Below the pieces are notes generated by a model. That model was not told where the DNA came from and made no database searches. It saw only the letters and a program-made list of their open reading frames with translations. A stretch of 64,000 nucleotides of DNA from Phycisphaeraceae bacterium (GTDB lineage Bacteria > Planctomycetota > Phycisphaerae > Phycisphaerales > SM1A02): assembly GCA_019636735.1 (NCBI GenBank), contig JAHBWY010000002.1:62001-126000 (forward strand), in the 5' to 3' direction. A program made the translations under genes and the position numbers. This document shows positions 49,579-57,217 of the stretch, one piece after another (the first letter of the stretch is position 1; every line of letters starts with the position of its first letter).

Positions 49579-50648
49579 TGGTGCCCCGCCCGTGCTGCGG
49601 CCTGCGGCACGGCGCGCAGCGCCTCGCGGATGATCTCGATGGCGCGATCGATATCCGACTCGCTGACATCGAGATGCGTGACGGCTCGCAGTCGTTGCGG
49701 TCCCATGGGAATGAGCCGAACGCCGCGCTCCGCAAGCCGAAAGGCCGCGTCGCGAGCTGTGCCGATTCGAGGGTCCACCCGGAAGAAGACCATGTTCGTG
49801 GGAATGGCCTTGGGTTCGATCTCCAGTGCGAGACCGTCGACCTCTCGGAGCCCTTCGGCGAGGCGACGGGCGTTCGCGTGATCACTCGCCAATCGATCGA
49901 TGTGGTGATCGAGCGCCCAGATGGCGGCGGCGGCGAGCAGGCCCGACTGGCGCATGCCTCCCCCGAACATCTTGCGAAATCTCCGCGCCCGCTCGATCCA
50001 GTCGCGCGGTCCCGCGAGTGCACTTCCCACCGGGCACCCGAGTCCTTTCGAGAAGCAGAGACTCACGCTCCGGGCTTCCGATGCGAAGTCGCGCATCGAG
50101 TAGCCCGCAGCCACGGCAGCGTTCGCGAGTCGCGCGCCATCAACATGGAGATGAAGCGACGCCTCGCGAGCCTCGCGGGCCACCGCCTTGAACTCCTCGA
50201 GTGACCACACCGTGCCGCCACCCCGATTGTGGGTGTTCTCCGCGACCACCATGCGGCTCTTCGGCGAGTGGATGTCACCGCCGCGAATGGCCGCTCGCAG
50301 CGAGTCGGCATCAAAACGCCCGCCTGGTCCATCAAGGCCAAGAATCATGCACCCGGAGAGCGCAGCCGGAGCCGCCGTCTCATAGTGAATGATGTGGCTC
50401 TCCCGATGCGCGATGATCTCATCGCCCGGCTCACACGCGCAACGGATAGCCAATTGGTTCGCCATCGTTCCACTGGGGGTGAAGAGCGCGGCCTCGTGAC
50501 CGAGGAGCGCGGCGACCTTCGATTCGAGCGCCGCCACGGTGGGTTCATCGCCGAGCACATCATCACCAAGCTCGGCGTGGCGCATCGCCCCCCACATGGC
50601 TGGCGTGGGGCGTGTCACCGTGTCCGAGCGGAGGTCAATCGAGTGCAC
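49575..50648 (-). CDS. ltaE: Low-specificity L-threonine aldolase
   Basis: This is a 357-residue PLP enzyme that splits threonine or allo-threonine into glycine and acetaldehyde. It starts IDLRSDTVTRPTPAMWGAM, has GDDVLGDEPTV, LFTPSGTMANQLAI, the Asp in LHLHVDGARLANAAVA and the PLP lysine in SLCFSKGLGCPVGSALAG. Residues and length match LtaE. The start is GTG 50648, with TACGCT 6 nt upstream. The HAD gene overlaps its end, so the two are translated together, perhaps for glycine or serine metabolism. Confidence 0.93.
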   Translation of the reverse strand: MHSIDLRSDTVTRPTPAMWGAMRHAELGDDVLGDEPTVAALESKVAALLGHEAALFTPSGTMANQLAIRCACEPGDEIIAHRESHIIHYETAAPAALSGCMILGLDGPGGRFDADSLRAAIRGGDIHSPKSRMVVAENTHNRGGGTVWSLEEFKAVAREAREASLHLHVDGARLANAAVAAGYSMRDFASEARSVSLCFSKGLGCPVGSALAGPRDWIERARRFRKMFGGGMRQSGLLAAAAIWALDHHIDRLASDHANARRLAEGLREVDGLALEIEPKAIPTNMVFFRVDPRIGTARDAAFRLAERGVRLIPMGPQRLRAVTHLDVSESDIDRAIEIIREALRAVPQAAARAGHQ

Positions 50649-50654
50649 GGAGGC

Positions 50655-50660
50655 AGCGTA
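50655..50660 (-). promoter_or_regulatory. -10 element TACGCT, leaderless type
   Basis: It lies 6 nt before the GTG start of ltaE at 50648, which supports that non-ATG start. Confidence 0.55.
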
Positions 50661-50791
50661 CGCCGCTCTGGAGCCGGGTGATCGGTGCGGATCGACCGCA
50701 CGCCCTGGGTAGGGGGTGGCCTCTGGACCATGGCCACTTCCGAGCGCCGCTCGATCCAGTTCAGCGGTCCTTTCGGCCGATAGTTCAAGGC

Positions 50792-53290
50792 ATGAGAGTG
50801 GTGCCCCCGACTTGGTTGACGGCGATGGCCTCGGGCGCGGTGGTCGCGCTCGGCCACGGCTTCGTCGGCCAGATCGAGGGCGCGGCGACTCTCACCCCCG
50901 AGCCGATGGGCGCTCGCGCCGTGAGCGCCGACCAGGCGCATGCGCCCCTCGCACCGCATCGCGTCGCGACCTTCACCTTTGAACCCGATCCTGCGCTGCC
51001 GCGAGAACTTCCCGCGGGGCTCTATCGCCTGCTCTCGCGCGACTCCGCTCGTGAAGGTCTCCCGCCATTCGGTGGCGTGGGGAGCACGGAAGTCATCGGT
51101 GCTCAGGGCGGATGGGCGCTTCGCTTCGCACTGGCTGGTGGTGCGATGGCCGTGGCGACGGAGCCGGCGATCATCCCGGTCCTCGCCGATGAAGTCATTG
51201 AAGCATCAGTGTTGGTGCAGACCCAGGGCGTCGAACGCTCCTGCGTGCGGTTGGTCATTCGCGCACTCGATGCCTCTCTCGAGCCTATCCCGGACGCGCA
51301 ATGGGAGGCTTCGGGGCGTGCAATCCAGGGTTGGCAGCGCCTCCTGATTCGCAGCGGCCCGGCGCCGGCCGGGTCGCGCTCGATGGAGGTCGCGATGGAG
51401 GTCACGCCCTGCCTGCCCGACGATCCGACGGGCGATGTCGCCGGAAGCGTCATCTTCGACAACCTCGAGATCTGGCGCGTCCCGCGCGTGACCATCGGAC
51501 TCGATCGCGCCGGCGCGCGCCCGGGACCCTCACCGCGCGCTGTGACCGTGCAGGTGAACGACCCACTCGGCGCCGCCATGACGCGTGGGGTTCTCCGCGA
51601 CGCCGATGGCCGCGTCCGCGTCGAGTGGAGTGCCACGGGCGAAGCACATTACGAAGTGGAAGTGCCGCCCCTCGGCCTCGGCGCGTTCGAAGTCGAAGTG
51701 GAGGCTCTCTCCGGGACGCGCTCACTCGACCGAGTCCGCATGCCCTTCGCCATCATCGAGCCCGACGAGCGTTCGGAGTCGAGGCGAGTACCGATCGGAG
51801 GGAGCGAGCAGCGCGCGTTGGTGCGCATGGGGCTCTGGCTCGATCGCGAGCGCCTGCTGGATCGCGCGGACGCTGTACATGCGTGCAGTGTGATTGGGCC
51901 CGACTTCGTGGTCATCGATGTCGGTGATGGTCGCCTCGCGCCATCAATCGGGCTTTCGCTTGCGGAGACCAGACTCCTCGTCGATGACCTGATGCTTGCG
52001 GGAGTCGAGCCGATTCTCCGCATCAGTCGCGTGCCTGCATCGCTCGCGCCGCTGTGGCACCTGGAGCAGGATGATCCCGCAGGTGTCTTTCTCCGAGAGG
52101 ACGATGCGTGGCGCGAGGTCTATGGTGCGTGGTTCGAGCGCTTCGGGCATCTCGTCTCGCGTTGGATGGTCGCTGGCAGCGACGCGGGGCGATCGACGAT
52201 CGTGACGACGCTCGATGGATTGGTTCCCGGCTTTGAAGAGATCAGCTCGACACTGCGCGTGGTGGACACCACCGGTGATGGGGCGCGCACCACCGCCGAC
52301 TTGACGGCCCTCGAGCTCATCCGCCACTGGCAGGAGGGCGCGTCGATGATCGCCGTGCGTGGCGCGCTCGATCCCGAGCCCGCTGCAGCGGCGCTGGCGC
52401 TCCGTGGTCTGACGAGCGCCGCACGGGGTGTGCGCTCGGTGGCCACGCTCGATGCGGGAAGTGATCTTGAGTGCCTGCTCCTCTCATCCGACGAAGCGGC
52501 CCGGGTCCTTGCCTGGCGACGCGACGGCGGCGCCGCGCGAGCGCTCTCACTGCCCTTCGACGGGGGCGTTCTCGCGGCGCGGGATGCGCTTGGCGTGCCC
52601 ATGCCGCTTGAGCGTCGCCAGGGGGCCGTCGAGGCAGTCATCGGCTCGACGCCAGTGATCATCGACGGCGTGGATCCACTCCTCGGTGCGTTCCTTTCGA
52701 AGCTGCGCTTTGAGCCCGCAGCACTCGAGGGGTCGACCGCGGAGCAGCGTCTTGCCGTGCGTCTCGTGAATCCATGGGATGTGACGATGGAGGGCACGCT
52801 TCGCTTCGTCGCGCCGGTCGACTGGTCGTTCATTCCGCGCATGCGACGCTTCTCGCTGCCGCCGGGAGCATCGGGTGAGGTCATCGTGAGTGTGACCCTC
52901 CCGCGCACGCAGCCATCCGGCGCGACGCGCGTTGGTATCGAGCTCGAGTTCACGGCCGATCGCGGTCATGCGCTGCGCGTTGATCCGCCGGTCGCGATCG
53001 AGGTTCGCGACTTCACCTGCGAGGCCCTCCTGCGTCCCATCACCCTTGCCGATGGTCGCCCCGGCGCCGTCGTCGACCTGGTCCTCGTCAATCGCTCCGA
53101 TCGCCCTCTCGAACTGGAGTCGATCCTCTCGACCACCTCGGGCACGGCGCGGCGCGATGGTCCGATCCGACTCGAGCCCGGTGCGCGGGCGAAGCGCAGC
53201 GTGCGCCTCGATGAGCCGATCTCCGGCGCCATCCTGCTCTCGGTCAATCAGACCAACGGCCCGCTGCGTCTTGTGCGCGTGCTGCGATAG
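50792..53290 (+). CDS. Large exported protein with beta-sandwich C-terminus
   Basis: This protein has 832 residues. The ATG 50792 leads into a hydrophobic signal (LTAMASGAVVALGHGFVG). Residues 40-230 look like a carbohydrate-binding-type beta-sandwich (GWALRFALAGG, VIFDNLEIWRVP). The middle (about 340-600) contains DDLMLAGVEPILRISRVPASL and resembles the barrel-like part of glycoside-hydrolase-related proteins, but without a recognised catalytic pair. About 640-830 are NEW3-like modules: RLAVRLVNPWDVTMEGTLRF and SLPPGASGEVIVSVTLP. It is probably a surface or periplasmic polysaccharide-related protein. It stops immediately before the convergent gene at 53291. Family and function are not certain. 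Confidence 0.65.
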   Translation: MRVVPPTWLTAMASGAVVALGHGFVGQIEGAATLTPEPMGARAVSADQAHAPLAPHRVATFTFEPDPALPRELPAGLYRLLSRDSAREGLPPFGGVGSTEVIGAQGGWALRFALAGGAMAVATEPAIIPVLADEVIEASVLVQTQGVERSCVRLVIRALDASLEPIPDAQWEASGRAIQGWQRLLIRSGPAPAGSRSMEVAMEVTPCLPDDPTGDVAGSVIFDNLEIWRVPRVTIGLDRAGARPGPSPRAVTVQVNDPLGAAMTRGVLRDADGRVRVEWSATGEAHYEVEVPPLGLGAFEVEVEALSGTRSLDRVRMPFAIIEPDERSESRRVPIGGSEQRALVRMGLWLDRERLLDRADAVHACSVIGPDFVVIDVGDGRLAPSIGLSLAETRLLVDDLMLAGVEPILRISRVPASLAPLWHLEQDDPAGVFLREDDAWREVYGAWFERFGHLVSRWMVAGSDAGRSTIVTTLDGLVPGFEEISSTLRVVDTTGDGARTTADLTALELIRHWQEGASMIAVRGALDPEPAAAALALRGLTSAARGVRSVATLDAGSDLECLLLSSDEAARVLAWRRDGGAARALSLPFDGGVLAARDALGVPMPLERRQGAVEAVIGSTPVIIDGVDPLLGAFLSKLRFEPAALEGSTAEQRLAVRLVNPWDVTMEGTLRFVAPVDWSFIPRMRRFSLPPGASGEVIVSVTLPRTQPSGATRVGIELEFTADRGHALRVDPPVAIEVRDFTCEALLRPITLADGRPGAVVDLVLVNRSDRPLELESILSTTSGTARRDGPIRLEPGARAKRSVRLDEPISGAILLSVNQTNGPLRLVRVLR

Positions 53291-53935
53291 CTACCACGGC
53301 TGACCCGAGGGCGCTCGCCCGGCGATGGCCACCGCCGCCAGCCGTCGAATGCGCCACTGACCGTCGGCACCCGGCACGACTTCGATGAGCCATGTACTCG
53401 GCACCGGCCCGAAACTCGAGGCAGTGGTCGTGATGCAACCGAACTCGGCGACGGCGCCGCCGGTCACGGGGCCGGCGCGCAGCCGCGTGACGCTGTTGGA
53501 CTCGATCCGATGTTGACGACCCAGAGACTCGATGCCCTGATCGATGATCCGCCACTCGAGTCCGATTGAGGTGAGCGAACCGAAGTGAATGGACGCGTCT
53601 TCCTCGAAGAGCGCCCGCATGGCGTTGAGATTGGCGGTCTCCGCGGCCTCGATCAACTCGTTCGCCACGCGACGGGCATGCTCCGCCGGCGTCGTGACCA
53701 GGGTGGCGGTGATGAAGATGACCACGCCGGCCGCGACGCACCCCGCCGCGCCGAGCAGGAGCCGTCGATCCTCTCGATCGATGGCGAATCGAAGCAAAGC
53801 TACGGCGGCAACTGCCAGAATGATGACCGCAGGCCACGGATTCTCAAGCAGGTAGCGCGTGAAGAAGCCTGGATCGGGAGCGGAGGTCACCCCCAAACCG
53901 TAGCAGGCGGCGGCGGCCTTCGGCGTCCCCTTCAT
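53291..53935 (-). CDS. Membrane protein with NTF2-like domain
   Basis: This protein has 214 residues. Two hydrophobic helices (about 33-50 and 60-82) are followed by a soluble domain that begins ARRVANELIEAAETANLNAMRALFEEDASIHFG, the pattern of SnoaL/NTF2-like domains, and ends WLIEVVPGADGQWRIRRL. The ligand is unknown. Its stop codon is directly next to the stop of the convergent exported protein, leaving no spacer for terminators. A GTG at 53890 in frame is an alternative start that removes a non-membrane N-terminus. It is divergent from the fusion gene at 53963 with only 27 bp between. Confidence 0.65.
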   Translation of the reverse strand: MKGTPKAAAACYGLGVTSAPDPGFFTRYLLENPWPAVIILAVAAVALLRFAIDREDRRLLLGAAGCVAAGVVIFITATLVTTPAEHARRVANELIEAAETANLNAMRALFEEDASIHFGSLTSIGLEWRIIDQGIESLGRQHRIESNSVTRLRAGPVTGGAVAEFGCITTTASSFGPVPSTWLIEVVPGADGQWRIRRLAAVAIAGRAPSGQPW

Positions 53936-53962: not shown

Positions 53963-56452
53963 ATGGAGTCCGCCGACACCACCCTTCAGGAAGCGCGCCG
54001 GGCCATGGCCGCGCTTCTGGGTCGGAGCGCCGGTTCACTCCCGCGCGTTCCCGGAGTCCTGCTGGGCGCCGGCCCCTCGCTCTCGTGCGTGCTGCCCGCG
54101 CTTGAAGCTCCGATCAAGGCGAGGCATGCGCTCGCCCTCGCGGCGCCATCGGTGGCCGACGCACTCCATCGCCGGCGCCTCCCCATCCTGACGCTCGCGC
54201 GACTGGCCGAAGCTCCGTGGTCGGTTCGGGGCGCTCTGACGCTTGAAGCGCTCGGTTGCAATCCGATCATCCTTGCCGGCTTCGATCTCGCCTTCACCGA
54301 CGGGCTCTTCTGCGCCGCGGAGCACGAACTTCATCGCGAGTGGGCTTGTGAATTGGGTCCCTTCCGGACCATCGAGAACCTCCACACGGCGGCCGTGCTC
54401 TCCGCGGGAGTCGTTGAGGATACGGCTCGCACTCCCGATGGCACACGGAGCACTCGACGGCTGCGCGCCGAACGCAGCGCCCTCGATCGCCTCATCGAGT
54501 CCCTTCGCGGATCGGGACGCGAGGTGATCGAGATCGACCCGCACGCGGCCCGGCATGCGGCGACGATCAAGAAGATCGTGACGACGCGTCTCGTGGAGCG
54601 ACAGCCGATCGAGTTGCCGCAGATCGCAGCAATGCAAGTCTCCGGTGATGCACTTTCGGTGGAGTCGAGATTTGGAACCGGTGCGAGTCTTGCAGATCTG
54701 CAGCATGAGTACGCCGGAGCGCAGGTATCGCGAAGGGAGCCATTGTCTTCCACCGCAACCAGCGGCCCCCTCACCGTCGAGGTGCGCGCCATGCCTCGTT
54801 TGGCCGCCGTGATTGCCTGTGACCCGGAGCGTGGTGGAACGGGTGTTCCCCGCCACCTCGACTCGGAGTTCGCAGGACGCACGGTGCTCTCAGCGACACT
54901 GGAGCGCCTCGGTCGCGTAGAAGGGGTGGAGCGGATCATCCTGCTGGTACCGACGGATTTCGACCCCCGCCCGCTCTTTGATCCTCGGCGCATCTCGCTC
55001 CCGGTCGAGGTCGAAGCCTGTGGTCGGTCGCCCTACCCCGAGGAGATCAGCGTCATCCGGACGGCGCGTCTCTGGGCCGACTCCGCGTGGCGCGGTGGAG
55101 TCAACGGTGCATGTGTCTGGGACGAAGTGGTCGCACCCGCCGCAACCTGTGCGGCGCTCGAGCGGCGCGGCCTCGATGCGGCGCTCATCTGTGGACCAGA
55201 TTGGCCCGTCATCATGATCGACGGTCTTGGTGGCGCCGACGAGGTGGTCGCGCGCTATCGCTCGGCGATGGGCGAGCTCGACATGACCTATGCGCCGGCG
55301 CCGCCAGGGCTTGGTGCGTGTGTCGTCGGGCGGCCTCTGCTTGAGGCGCTCGCGTTGCGACGGGGCCCGCGGCTCCTCGGCGAGCGCATCGATCGCGAGC
55401 CGATCACGCGCGAGGACCCGTCGGCGGTGCTGCCCGTCGATCGCATTCGGCGCAGCATGGTGCGCGCGGTGCTCGACTCGATGCGCGCCAAGCTCCGGAT
55501 GCGAAGGGGCATCGAACCCATCGTGGTCGACGGAGCTTCAGGCGAGACGATCGATCACATCGGCGGGTGGTCCGTCGTCGAGGCGCTCGAGCACCAGTTC
55601 TTCAACCTGCCTCCCGCCTTCGTTCCGCAGCATCTCATCATCGAGCTCAACACGGGCCGCCGCGCCTCCGGGTCATTCAGTCCCCACCGGGTCGGGAGCA
55701 TCCAGCGCCCGCCGATGACCGAGCGCCTGCTTGAAGCGATCCTCGATGAGGTCGCGGCGCCGCGCGATGTGGTCATCACCTTCGGTCATGTCGGCGATCC
55801 CCTCTGGCACCCCGAGTTGCCGAAGTTCATCCGCATGGCCCACTGGGCCGGGGCTCGGGCGGTGCATGTGCGAACGGAACTGCTTGCCGATCAGCCGCGC
55901 ATCGAGGCGATGCTCGCGGCGGGGCCGGATGTCATCAGCATCGATCTGCACGCCTGCACATCACCGGCGTACCGCGCGCTCATGGGTGCACATCCGCTGG
56001 AGCGGGTGCTGGCCAACATCGAGTCGATGCTGGCTCGCCTGGGGTCTGCCGACCCCGCCCTTCGCCTTCCTCTGATCGTGCCGCGACTTCAGAGGCGCGG
56101 CGCGAATGTCGGCGACATCGAACGCTTCGTCATGACATGGCGTCAACGCCTGGGAACGGCCATCGTCGAGGGTATTCCCCGTTTCGCGGAGAGCCCCGAG
56201 CGCGAAGTGGACCCGCTCATTCCGGCGGAGGTCCCGCTCGAGTCGATCCGCCGCGAGGGAGCGCGGCGCATGGTTGTTCTCTCCGATGGCCGGGTGCCGC
56301 TGAGTGAACTCGACCTCGTCGCGGAGCAGACGATCGCGTCGATTCAGCGCGGCGGCGTCTTCGAGGTGTGGCGGGATGTGATGAGCCGACGACGGCAGCG
56401 AGGTCGGGATCCGACGAAGATTCCCAATGACTTGCGCTGCTGGCAGCCCTAG
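53963..56452 (+). CDS. Three-domain fusion: DUF115-like, SpsF-like nucleotidyltransferase, cysteine-less radical-SAM/SPASM-like
   Basis: This protein has 829 residues. Residues about 28-150 match the core of DUF115/MptE-like (flagellin-glycosylation Maf) domains: GVLLGAGPSL and EALGCNPIILAGFDLAFTDG. Residues 278-470 match SpsF-type cytidylyltransferases: AAVIACDPERGGTG, AGRTVLSATLERL, ERIILLVPT. Residues 550-700 follow a radical-SAM barrel: PQHLIIELNTG, ITFGHVGDPLWHPELPKFIRMA, VISIDLHACTSPAYRALMG. The CxxxCxxC cluster motif is gone: the three positions are about R566, G570 and S573. Residues 768-810 keep a SPASM outline (MVVLSDGRVPLSELD, FEVWRDVM) without its cysteines. It is probably a non-redox descendant acting in surface-sugar assembly. 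The upstream extension of the frame is rejected; TATCGT supports ATG 53963. Confidence 0.7.
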   Translation: MESADTTLQEARRAMAALLGRSAGSLPRVPGVLLGAGPSLSCVLPALEAPIKARHALALAAPSVADALHRRRLPILTLARLAEAPWSVRGALTLEALGCNPIILAGFDLAFTDGLFCAAEHELHREWACELGPFRTIENLHTAAVLSAGVVEDTARTPDGTRSTRRLRAERSALDRLIESLRGSGREVIEIDPHAARHAATIKKIVTTRLVERQPIELPQIAAMQVSGDALSVESRFGTGASLADLQHEYAGAQVSRREPLSSTATSGPLTVEVRAMPRLAAVIACDPERGGTGVPRHLDSEFAGRTVLSATLERLGRVEGVERIILLVPTDFDPRPLFDPRRISLPVEVEACGRSPYPEEISVIRTARLWADSAWRGGVNGACVWDEVVAPAATCAALERRGLDAALICGPDWPVIMIDGLGGADEVVARYRSAMGELDMTYAPAPPGLGACVVGRPLLEALALRRGPRLLGERIDREPITREDPSAVLPVDRIRRSMVRAVLDSMRAKLRMRRGIEPIVVDGASGETIDHIGGWSVVEALEHQFFNLPPAFVPQHLIIELNTGRRASGSFSPHRVGSIQRPPMTERLLEAILDEVAAPRDVVITFGHVGDPLWHPELPKFIRMAHWAGARAVHVRTELLADQPRIEAMLAAGPDVISIDLHACTSPAYRALMGAHPLERVLANIESMLARLGSADPALRLPLIVPRLQRRGANVGDIERFVMTWRQRLGTAIVEGIPRFAESPEREVDPLIPAEVPLESIRREGARRMVVLSDGRVPLSELDLVAEQTIASIQRGGVFEVWRDVMSRRRQRGRDPTKIPNDLRCWQP

Positions 56453-56478
56453 CGGATCTCGGCCGGGCCGAACGGGCC

Positions 56479-56484
56479 TACGAT
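56479..56484 (+). promoter_or_regulatory. -10 element TACGAT, leaderless type
   Basis: It lies 7 nt before ATG 56492; no ribosome site. Confidence 0.55.
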
Positions 56485-56491
56485 CTTCGCA

Positions 56492-57217
56492 ATGGCGGAT
56501 GTGATCACCGTCGACTTCGACCGACCCATGCCGCTCTTTGTCCTGCCGGCAGTGGTGCTGCTGCCTCACTCGCGGCAGAGACTCCATGTTTTCGAGCCGC
56601 GCTATCGGCAGATGGTGGAACACTGCCTCGAGCGCGGACATGGCCACCTGATGCGCGCCGGACAGATTGCGCTCGCTGTGGTGCAGCCCTCGGCGATTGC
56701 AGAAGGGGCGTGGAAGGAGCCGGCGCCGCTGCGCGACGCGGTCTGCGTCGGTCACATGGTGGAACACAACCAACTCGCGGATGGGCGACACAACATCACG
56801 CTGCACGGGATCTGCCGCGCTCGGATCCTGACTGTTGATGAACCCGGCGATGAGCGCCTCTATCGCCAGGCGGTGTTGAGGCCGCTCGAACCACCGGGCC
56901 GCGCGTTCCCGCCGATGCACACCGCCCGTCGCGCGATCCGCGAGGTCATGGCGGGGCCGAGATTGCGGCGCATGAACTCGATTCGAGCGCTGCTCAACTG
57001 GATCTCGCGCGACGATCTGCCGACGCACGCCATGGTTGAAATCGTGGGCGATGCGATTGTGCGGAGCGAGTGTGATCGCTACCGGCTGCTTGAGGAGCCC
57101 GACCCCTGGGCTCGGGCGAGAATCCTGAGGGATCACCTGCTCGGTCTTGATCGACTGGTTGGAGCAGCGGACCGGCAGCGTGCGGGCGAGTGGCCCAAGG
57201 GTCTGAGCTGGAACTGA
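56492..57217 (+). CDS. Lon N-terminal (LON substrate-binding) domain protein
   Basis: This protein has 241 residues and consists only of the substrate-binding domain of Lon: MPLFVLPAVVLLPHSRQRLHVFEPRYRQMVEHCL, then a beta segment with GHMVEHNQLADGRHNITLHGICRARI, and a helical C-terminal part. No ATPase or protease domain follows, so it is one of the stand-alone LON-domain proteins found in many bacteria. Its role, probably binding of unfolded proteins or acting as an adaptor, is not established. The start is supported by TACGAT 7 nt upstream. It converges with the cyclophilin gene. Confidence 0.88.
   Translation: MADVITVDFDRPMPLFVLPAVVLLPHSRQRLHVFEPRYRQMVEHCLERGHGHLMRAGQIALAVVQPSAIAEGAWKEPAPLRDAVCVGHMVEHNQLADGRHNITLHGICRARILTVDEPGDERLYRQAVLRPLEPPGRAFPPMHTARRAIREVMAGPRLRRMNSIRALLNWISRDDLPTHAMVEIVGDAIVRSECDRYRLLEEPDPWARARILRDHLLGLDRLVGAADRQRAGEWPKGLSWN

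Follow-up and report, generated by a model that had tools for sequence, protein, structure and literature searches.

The window, a 64,000-nucleotide stretch of a Phycisphaeraceae bacterium genome, carries at positions 53963-56452 of the forward strand a gene that runs without a stop for 829 amino acids, each of the three parts of the protein showing a coding-like GC pattern over codon positions. Its open frame, orthologues and dN/dS ratio support reading the whole gene as encoding a composite protein, comprising a remnant of a Maf/MptE-like (DUF115) transferase (54050-54607), a pseudo-nucleotidyltransferase domain of the SpsF/CMP-sugar type (54791-55597) and a radical SAM/SPASM-like barrel devoid of cluster cysteines (55610-56449), all on the forward strand; we refer to the latter two domains together as the module. 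Upstream lies a divergently oriented gene for a 214-residue protein of no known family (53291-53935, reverse strand), and downstream a gene with a LON substrate-binding domain (56492-57217, forward strand), which by synteny serve as markers of the upstream and 3' sides of a gene cassette described below. A gene similar to the former occupies the same place in one relative (G031; L041:7591-8211). Further upstream, the frame at 50612-53290 (forward strand; up to 892 residues) had no match in Pfam or NCBIfam, and homologues of it (~26% identity) are found just 5' of the Maf cassette in three relatives (G026, G016 and G031), making it a conserved neighbour.

Closer inspection of the C-terminal part bore out the sequence features that a first-pass annotation had placed there, with GHVGDPLWHPELP at residue 608, VISIDLH at 657, SDGRV at 774 and FEVW at 800. 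By motif comparison, GHVGDPLWHPELP (55784-55822, forward strand) is the counterpart of the SAM-binding GGEP loop, and reads GGxG[ED]P across the family. In an alignment that includes 15 canonical radical SAM/SPASM paralogues, the positions equivalent to the CxxxCxxC cluster motif are taken by R566, G570 and S573 (55658-55681, forward strand), and beyond residue 540 there are only two cysteines, Cys665 (in DLHACTS) and Cys826 (in LRCWQP), exactly as that annotation had claimed. Alignment and tree also place a SPASM-like tail at 56282-56449 (forward strand), lacking the four SPASM cysteines seen in unfused relatives. Radical SAM homology of the protein was significant, with matches to TIGR04321 (E=6e-13), W_rSAM_matur (E=8.5e-5) and PF04055 (E=1.7e-6), the last scoring 28.7 for the whole protein and 30.5 for the C-terminal part alone relative to a Pfam gathering score of 29.5.

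With the window protein alone as query, no sequence match was obtained in the PDB. An AlphaFold2 model of residues 253-829, built with 19 homologues in the input, reached a pLDDT of 77 and a pTM of 0.81, with low confidence in the final ~15 residues, and its two domains were compared with the PDB using VIA-align (Foldseek was also run). Residues ~277-545 resemble the SpsF-type cytidylyltransferase 6OEW (Z 21.3, rmsd 2.8 over 225 residues), and also KdsB, IspD and NeuA, while residues ~550-829 resemble radical SAM structures (Z 18-21), among them the enzymes DesII, SuiB, BtrN, BlsE and MoaA (Z 19-21). The predicted structure thereby confirms both an SpsF/CMP-sugar nucleotidyltransferase fold and the partial TIM barrel of radical SAM enzymes, and not a non-barrel fold in its place; the radical SAM/SPASM-type fold and its fusion to an SpsF-like domain, both proposed from the letters of the gene, therefore hold in the model.

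To place the loss of cluster cysteines in an evolutionary context, relatives were sampled from 61 related genomes, from 294 planctomycete genomes (searched with TIGR04321) and from GTDB contigs (searched with a family alignment), the last of which returned loci from Planctomycetota alone. The window gene was matched in 47 of the 61 relatives. A single alignment of 79 domains was assembled, comprising 64 nucleotidyltransferase plus radical-SAM-like modules and 15 canonical radical SAM/SPASM paralogues of ~315-565 residues. CxxxCxxC was found in none of the 64 modules, one of which (L025) carries a deletion at the triad site, and all three cysteines were present in 15 of 15 paralogues. The cysteine loss thus extends throughout the clade, as the first-pass annotation had proposed to check. 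Matches that do retain the motif were considered as possible orthologues and rejected, as they correspond to the 315-565-residue sister paralogues outside the module clade. On a tree of 77 of the 79 alignment rows, inferred with the cysteine columns left out, there is a single change in the cluster motif (SH-aLRT 99). CxxxCxxC is ancestral to the radical SAM superfamily, and the change is therefore polarised as a loss rather than a gain.

The SPASM cysteines change once more on the same tree (SH-aLRT 97), defining a clade of 26 that includes the window protein. Nearly all members inside this clade are fused to Maf, G016 instead having overlapping separate ORFs, and outside it most members are unfused and three or four SPASM cysteines are retained. 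The window protein has none of the four auxiliary-cluster cysteines, compared to four of four in most unfused relatives, and PF13186 matched relatives but not the window protein. From these sequence comparisons, loss of CxxxCxxC is read as an ancient, single event that long preceded the triple fusion and that unfused relatives have in common, and loss of the SPASM cysteines as accompanying the Maf fusion at about the same point of the tree. The cysteine-free triple form that had seemed novel does lack CxxxCxxC, but the loss predates the fusion and extends to unfused relatives, and the family closest to the protein is a named one, spiro-SPASM (TIGR04321). Pseudogene formation or damage in a single genome was also considered and rejected on the clade-wide loss of the motif together with the dN/dS values given below. 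Among the SAM-binding residues, the GGxG[ED]P loop is still conserved in the module family, which may therefore continue to bind a ligand such as SAM; the unfused module, with its four conserved SPASM cysteines, may hold a cluster and have some activity.

The SpsF-like domain, likewise assigned from its fold by the AlphaFold2 model, VIA-align and motif comparison, keeps the family motifs WRGG (residue 376) and APPGL (446). The nucleotide-binding signature ARxGSxxxPxK, shown by NeuA and KdsB of the same group, is absent from the window protein and from the whole aligned family; the corresponding site reads like xxDLxxxxLGLPSRL in the family and ACDPERGGTGVPRHL in the window protein. The glycan nucleotidyltransferase activity assumed in the first-pass annotation is not upheld by this comparison, as a domain missing the catalytic signature probably does not work as a conventional glycan nucleotidyltransferase. 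It is also probably not the CMP-sugar synthetase of the cassette, given that a canonical PseF/NeuA-type cytidylyltransferase adjoins it in relatives.

Genomic context among relatives revealed a recurrent gene order, in which the homologue of the 892-residue frame and the small divergent gene are followed by Maf and the module (fused or adjacent), neuA, neuB, neuC, an HDOD gene and the LON gene. Maf is immediately 5' of the module in 20 of 20 complete loci from GTDB contigs (L082-L101), with neu genes next in most, and is fused or adjacent to the module in every intact relative; conversely, the module was matched in 40 of the 41 relatives having a cassette-type Maf. Across Planctomycetota, the arrangement maf, pseudo-radical-SAM module, neuA, neuB, neuC was observed at L033-L051 and L082-L101. 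The identity of Maf in relatives is supported by PF01973 scores of 116-130 bits in most orthologues, by PF20157 and FlagModPseD, and by a sequence match to 5MU5. Among the 61 relatives, 45 have both the window gene and flagellin genes, 2 the gene only, 3 flagellin only and 11 neither (Fisher p=6e-8, a statistic that ignores phylogeny). In Aeromonas, Maf1 binds flagellin directly and works on it in the cytoplasm (PMC4065374). The cassette apparently serves glycosylation of flagellin with nonulosonates, which are sialic-acid-like sugars, a more specific setting than the generic surface-sugar assembly first proposed. Three flagellated relatives (G008, G022 and G035) have neither the module nor a cassette-type Maf, and may have unglycosylated flagellin or another system.

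In the window's genome, much of this cassette is missing. PF01973 matches the window protein with 24.1 bits in two pieces, below the gathering score of 34.6, and alignment with orthologues shows that GAGPSL and GFDLAFTDGLF are kept while the N-terminal Maf domain and the core bearing PDFVxALDxH and GxTVAHL are gone. Homology to DUF115/Maf, as first annotated, is thus present, but by this comparison the DUF115/MptE part is a truncated remnant. Synteny with G031 (L041) and G016 (L036) places the site of neuA-neuB-neuC and HDOD at 56453-56491 (forward strand), which is empty here: the LON gene follows directly 3' of the window gene, as it also does in a member of the same genus (G001). No NeuB was found genome-wide, and no MptE/Maf domain was detected elsewhere in the genome, which does encode FlhA and flagellin. 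The reading frame is open in both genus members, and comparison of the module with that of G001 gave a dN/dS of 0.30 at a dS of about 1.1, with both domains equally constrained. As this value falls within the range of the neighbouring genes (0.14-0.39), the module in this genus is kept under purifying selection and is not drifting freely, a single genome pair being thin evidence. In the next lineage on the tree (G025, L035), Maf is degraded and both NeuB and flagellin are absent, with the module still in frame in a protein of 1071 residues. The module persists in genera g1 and g25, where Maf and neuABC have been lost, which implies either that Maf is not its sole partner or that the module is slowly decaying.

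Comparison with known families identified the spiro-SPASM family TIGR04321 (NCBIfam) as the best match to the window protein, over the radical SAM and SPASM part, and in fuller relatives this model also aligns over the N-terminal nucleotidyltransferase-like part. As the curated cut-off of 250 bits is not reached (48.2 bits for the window protein and 158 for the best planctomycete member), the window protein was not filed under TIGR04321, from which it also differs in having a Maf remnant and no SPASM cysteines. When the three cysteines were placed in a planctomycete sequence, its score against TIGR04321 rose by 8.6 bits, whereas the gain with a true radical SAM model is ~20, a difference pointing to a family seed that is mixed at CxxxCxxC. 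A named precedent for a SPASM-type pseudo-SAM exists in TIGR04347 (pseudo-SAM/SPASM; curated cut-off 525 bits), which relatives match weakly (15-32 bits) and the window protein does not match up to E=10; to our knowledge, this family has no nucleotidyltransferase or Maf part. The SpsF-type and CMP-sugar cytidylyltransferases (6OEW, KdsB, NeuA) share their fold with the window protein but not, family-wide, the ARxGSxxxPxK signature, and BtrN, DesII, SuiB and MoaA share its barrel (Z 19-21) but not its lack of CxxxCxxC and SPASM cysteines. Orthologues have, fused or adjacent, the full Maf-type domain of Maf/PseD flagellin glycosyltransferases (PF01973, PF20157, NF050051; Aeromonas caviae Maf1, PMC4065374; structure 5MU5), of which the window protein holds a fragment only. 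In the literature library searched, no paper mentions ‘spiro-SPASM’ or ‘pseudo-rSAM’, and no publication was found that connects Maf to a radical SAM/SPASM protein; radical SAM is not mentioned in a paper on Leptospira nonulosonates.

Taken together, we favour, with a probability of roughly 55%, a reading in which the window protein is what is left of a Maf, GT-A/SpsF-like and radical SAM/SPASM-like fusion whose module is a double-pseudoenzyme accessory for Maf. The two C-terminal domains make up one module that Planctomycetota encode immediately after Maf or fused to it, usually with neuA, neuB and neuC next; it lost CxxxCxxC once and early, and its nucleotidyltransferase signature is also gone, with the SPASM cluster lost as well in the fused clade. 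Given the lost motifs and the linkage to Maf, we infer that the module would serve Maf as a binding scaffold, either towards flagellin or towards the CMP-nonulosonate supply, carrying out no radical or redox chemistry. In the window's genus the Maf core and neuABC are gone, and the module, still under purifying selection, would keep part of its binding role or have a more recent one. The view set out in the first-pass annotation, a repurposed non-redox radical SAM fold working with an active glycan nucleotidyltransferase and Maf in surface-sugar assembly, was right in its fold assignments and in the fusion, but is rendered very improbable by the lost nucleotidyltransferase signature, the truncated Maf and surroundings that correspond to flagellin nonulosonate cassettes.

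Strong conservation of the GGxG[ED]P loop, WRGG and APPGL, the good preservation of both folds and the four SPASM cysteines kept by unfused relatives might instead indicate an active enzyme of another kind, in which the barrel or the nucleotidyltransferase-like domain binds SAM, CTP or nonulosonate and catalyses a non-radical step of nonulosonate transfer. We consider this unlikely, as both catalytic signatures are absent from the family and the cassette already includes a canonical NeuA/PseF-type cytidylyltransferase. A little less probable again is that the gene is a decaying relic, a functionless ORF that has been drifting since neuABC and the Maf core disappeared. The truncated Maf, the absence of NeuB and of neuABC from their syntenic place, and a sister lineage (G025) in which Maf is degraded and NeuB and flagellin are lacking would all be expected of such a relic, but the frame is open in both genus members, and a dN/dS of ~0.30, like that of the neighbours and equal over both domains, argues against free drift.

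An extension of the accessory reading, which we advance tentatively and with less confidence than the reading itself, is that Maf-type nonulosonate transferases have an obligate partner across the phylum, a non-catalytic double pseudoenzyme, and that in the window's lineage this partner outlived both transferase and sugar pathway and so took on a Maf-independent function. If true, this would provide a role for the uncharacterised spiro-SPASM family. The clade preserves a stepwise record in which the catalytic cluster was lost, then the auxiliary cluster with fusion, and then, in one lineage, the transferase. An enzymatic role is almost always assumed for a radical SAM fold, whereas this entire clade has long kept the fold without its cluster, at a constant position next to a flagellin glycosyltransferase and later fused to it. 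It offers a testable case of a pseudoenzyme of the radical SAM type whose partner is defined, and proposes a function for spiro-SPASM. Also identified in genus g37 (G037, G042, G046 and G050) were fusion ORFs of 1124-1205 residues with a match over the nucleotidyltransferase-like part and none over the radical-SAM-like part, which in these proteins may have diverged strongly or disappeared.
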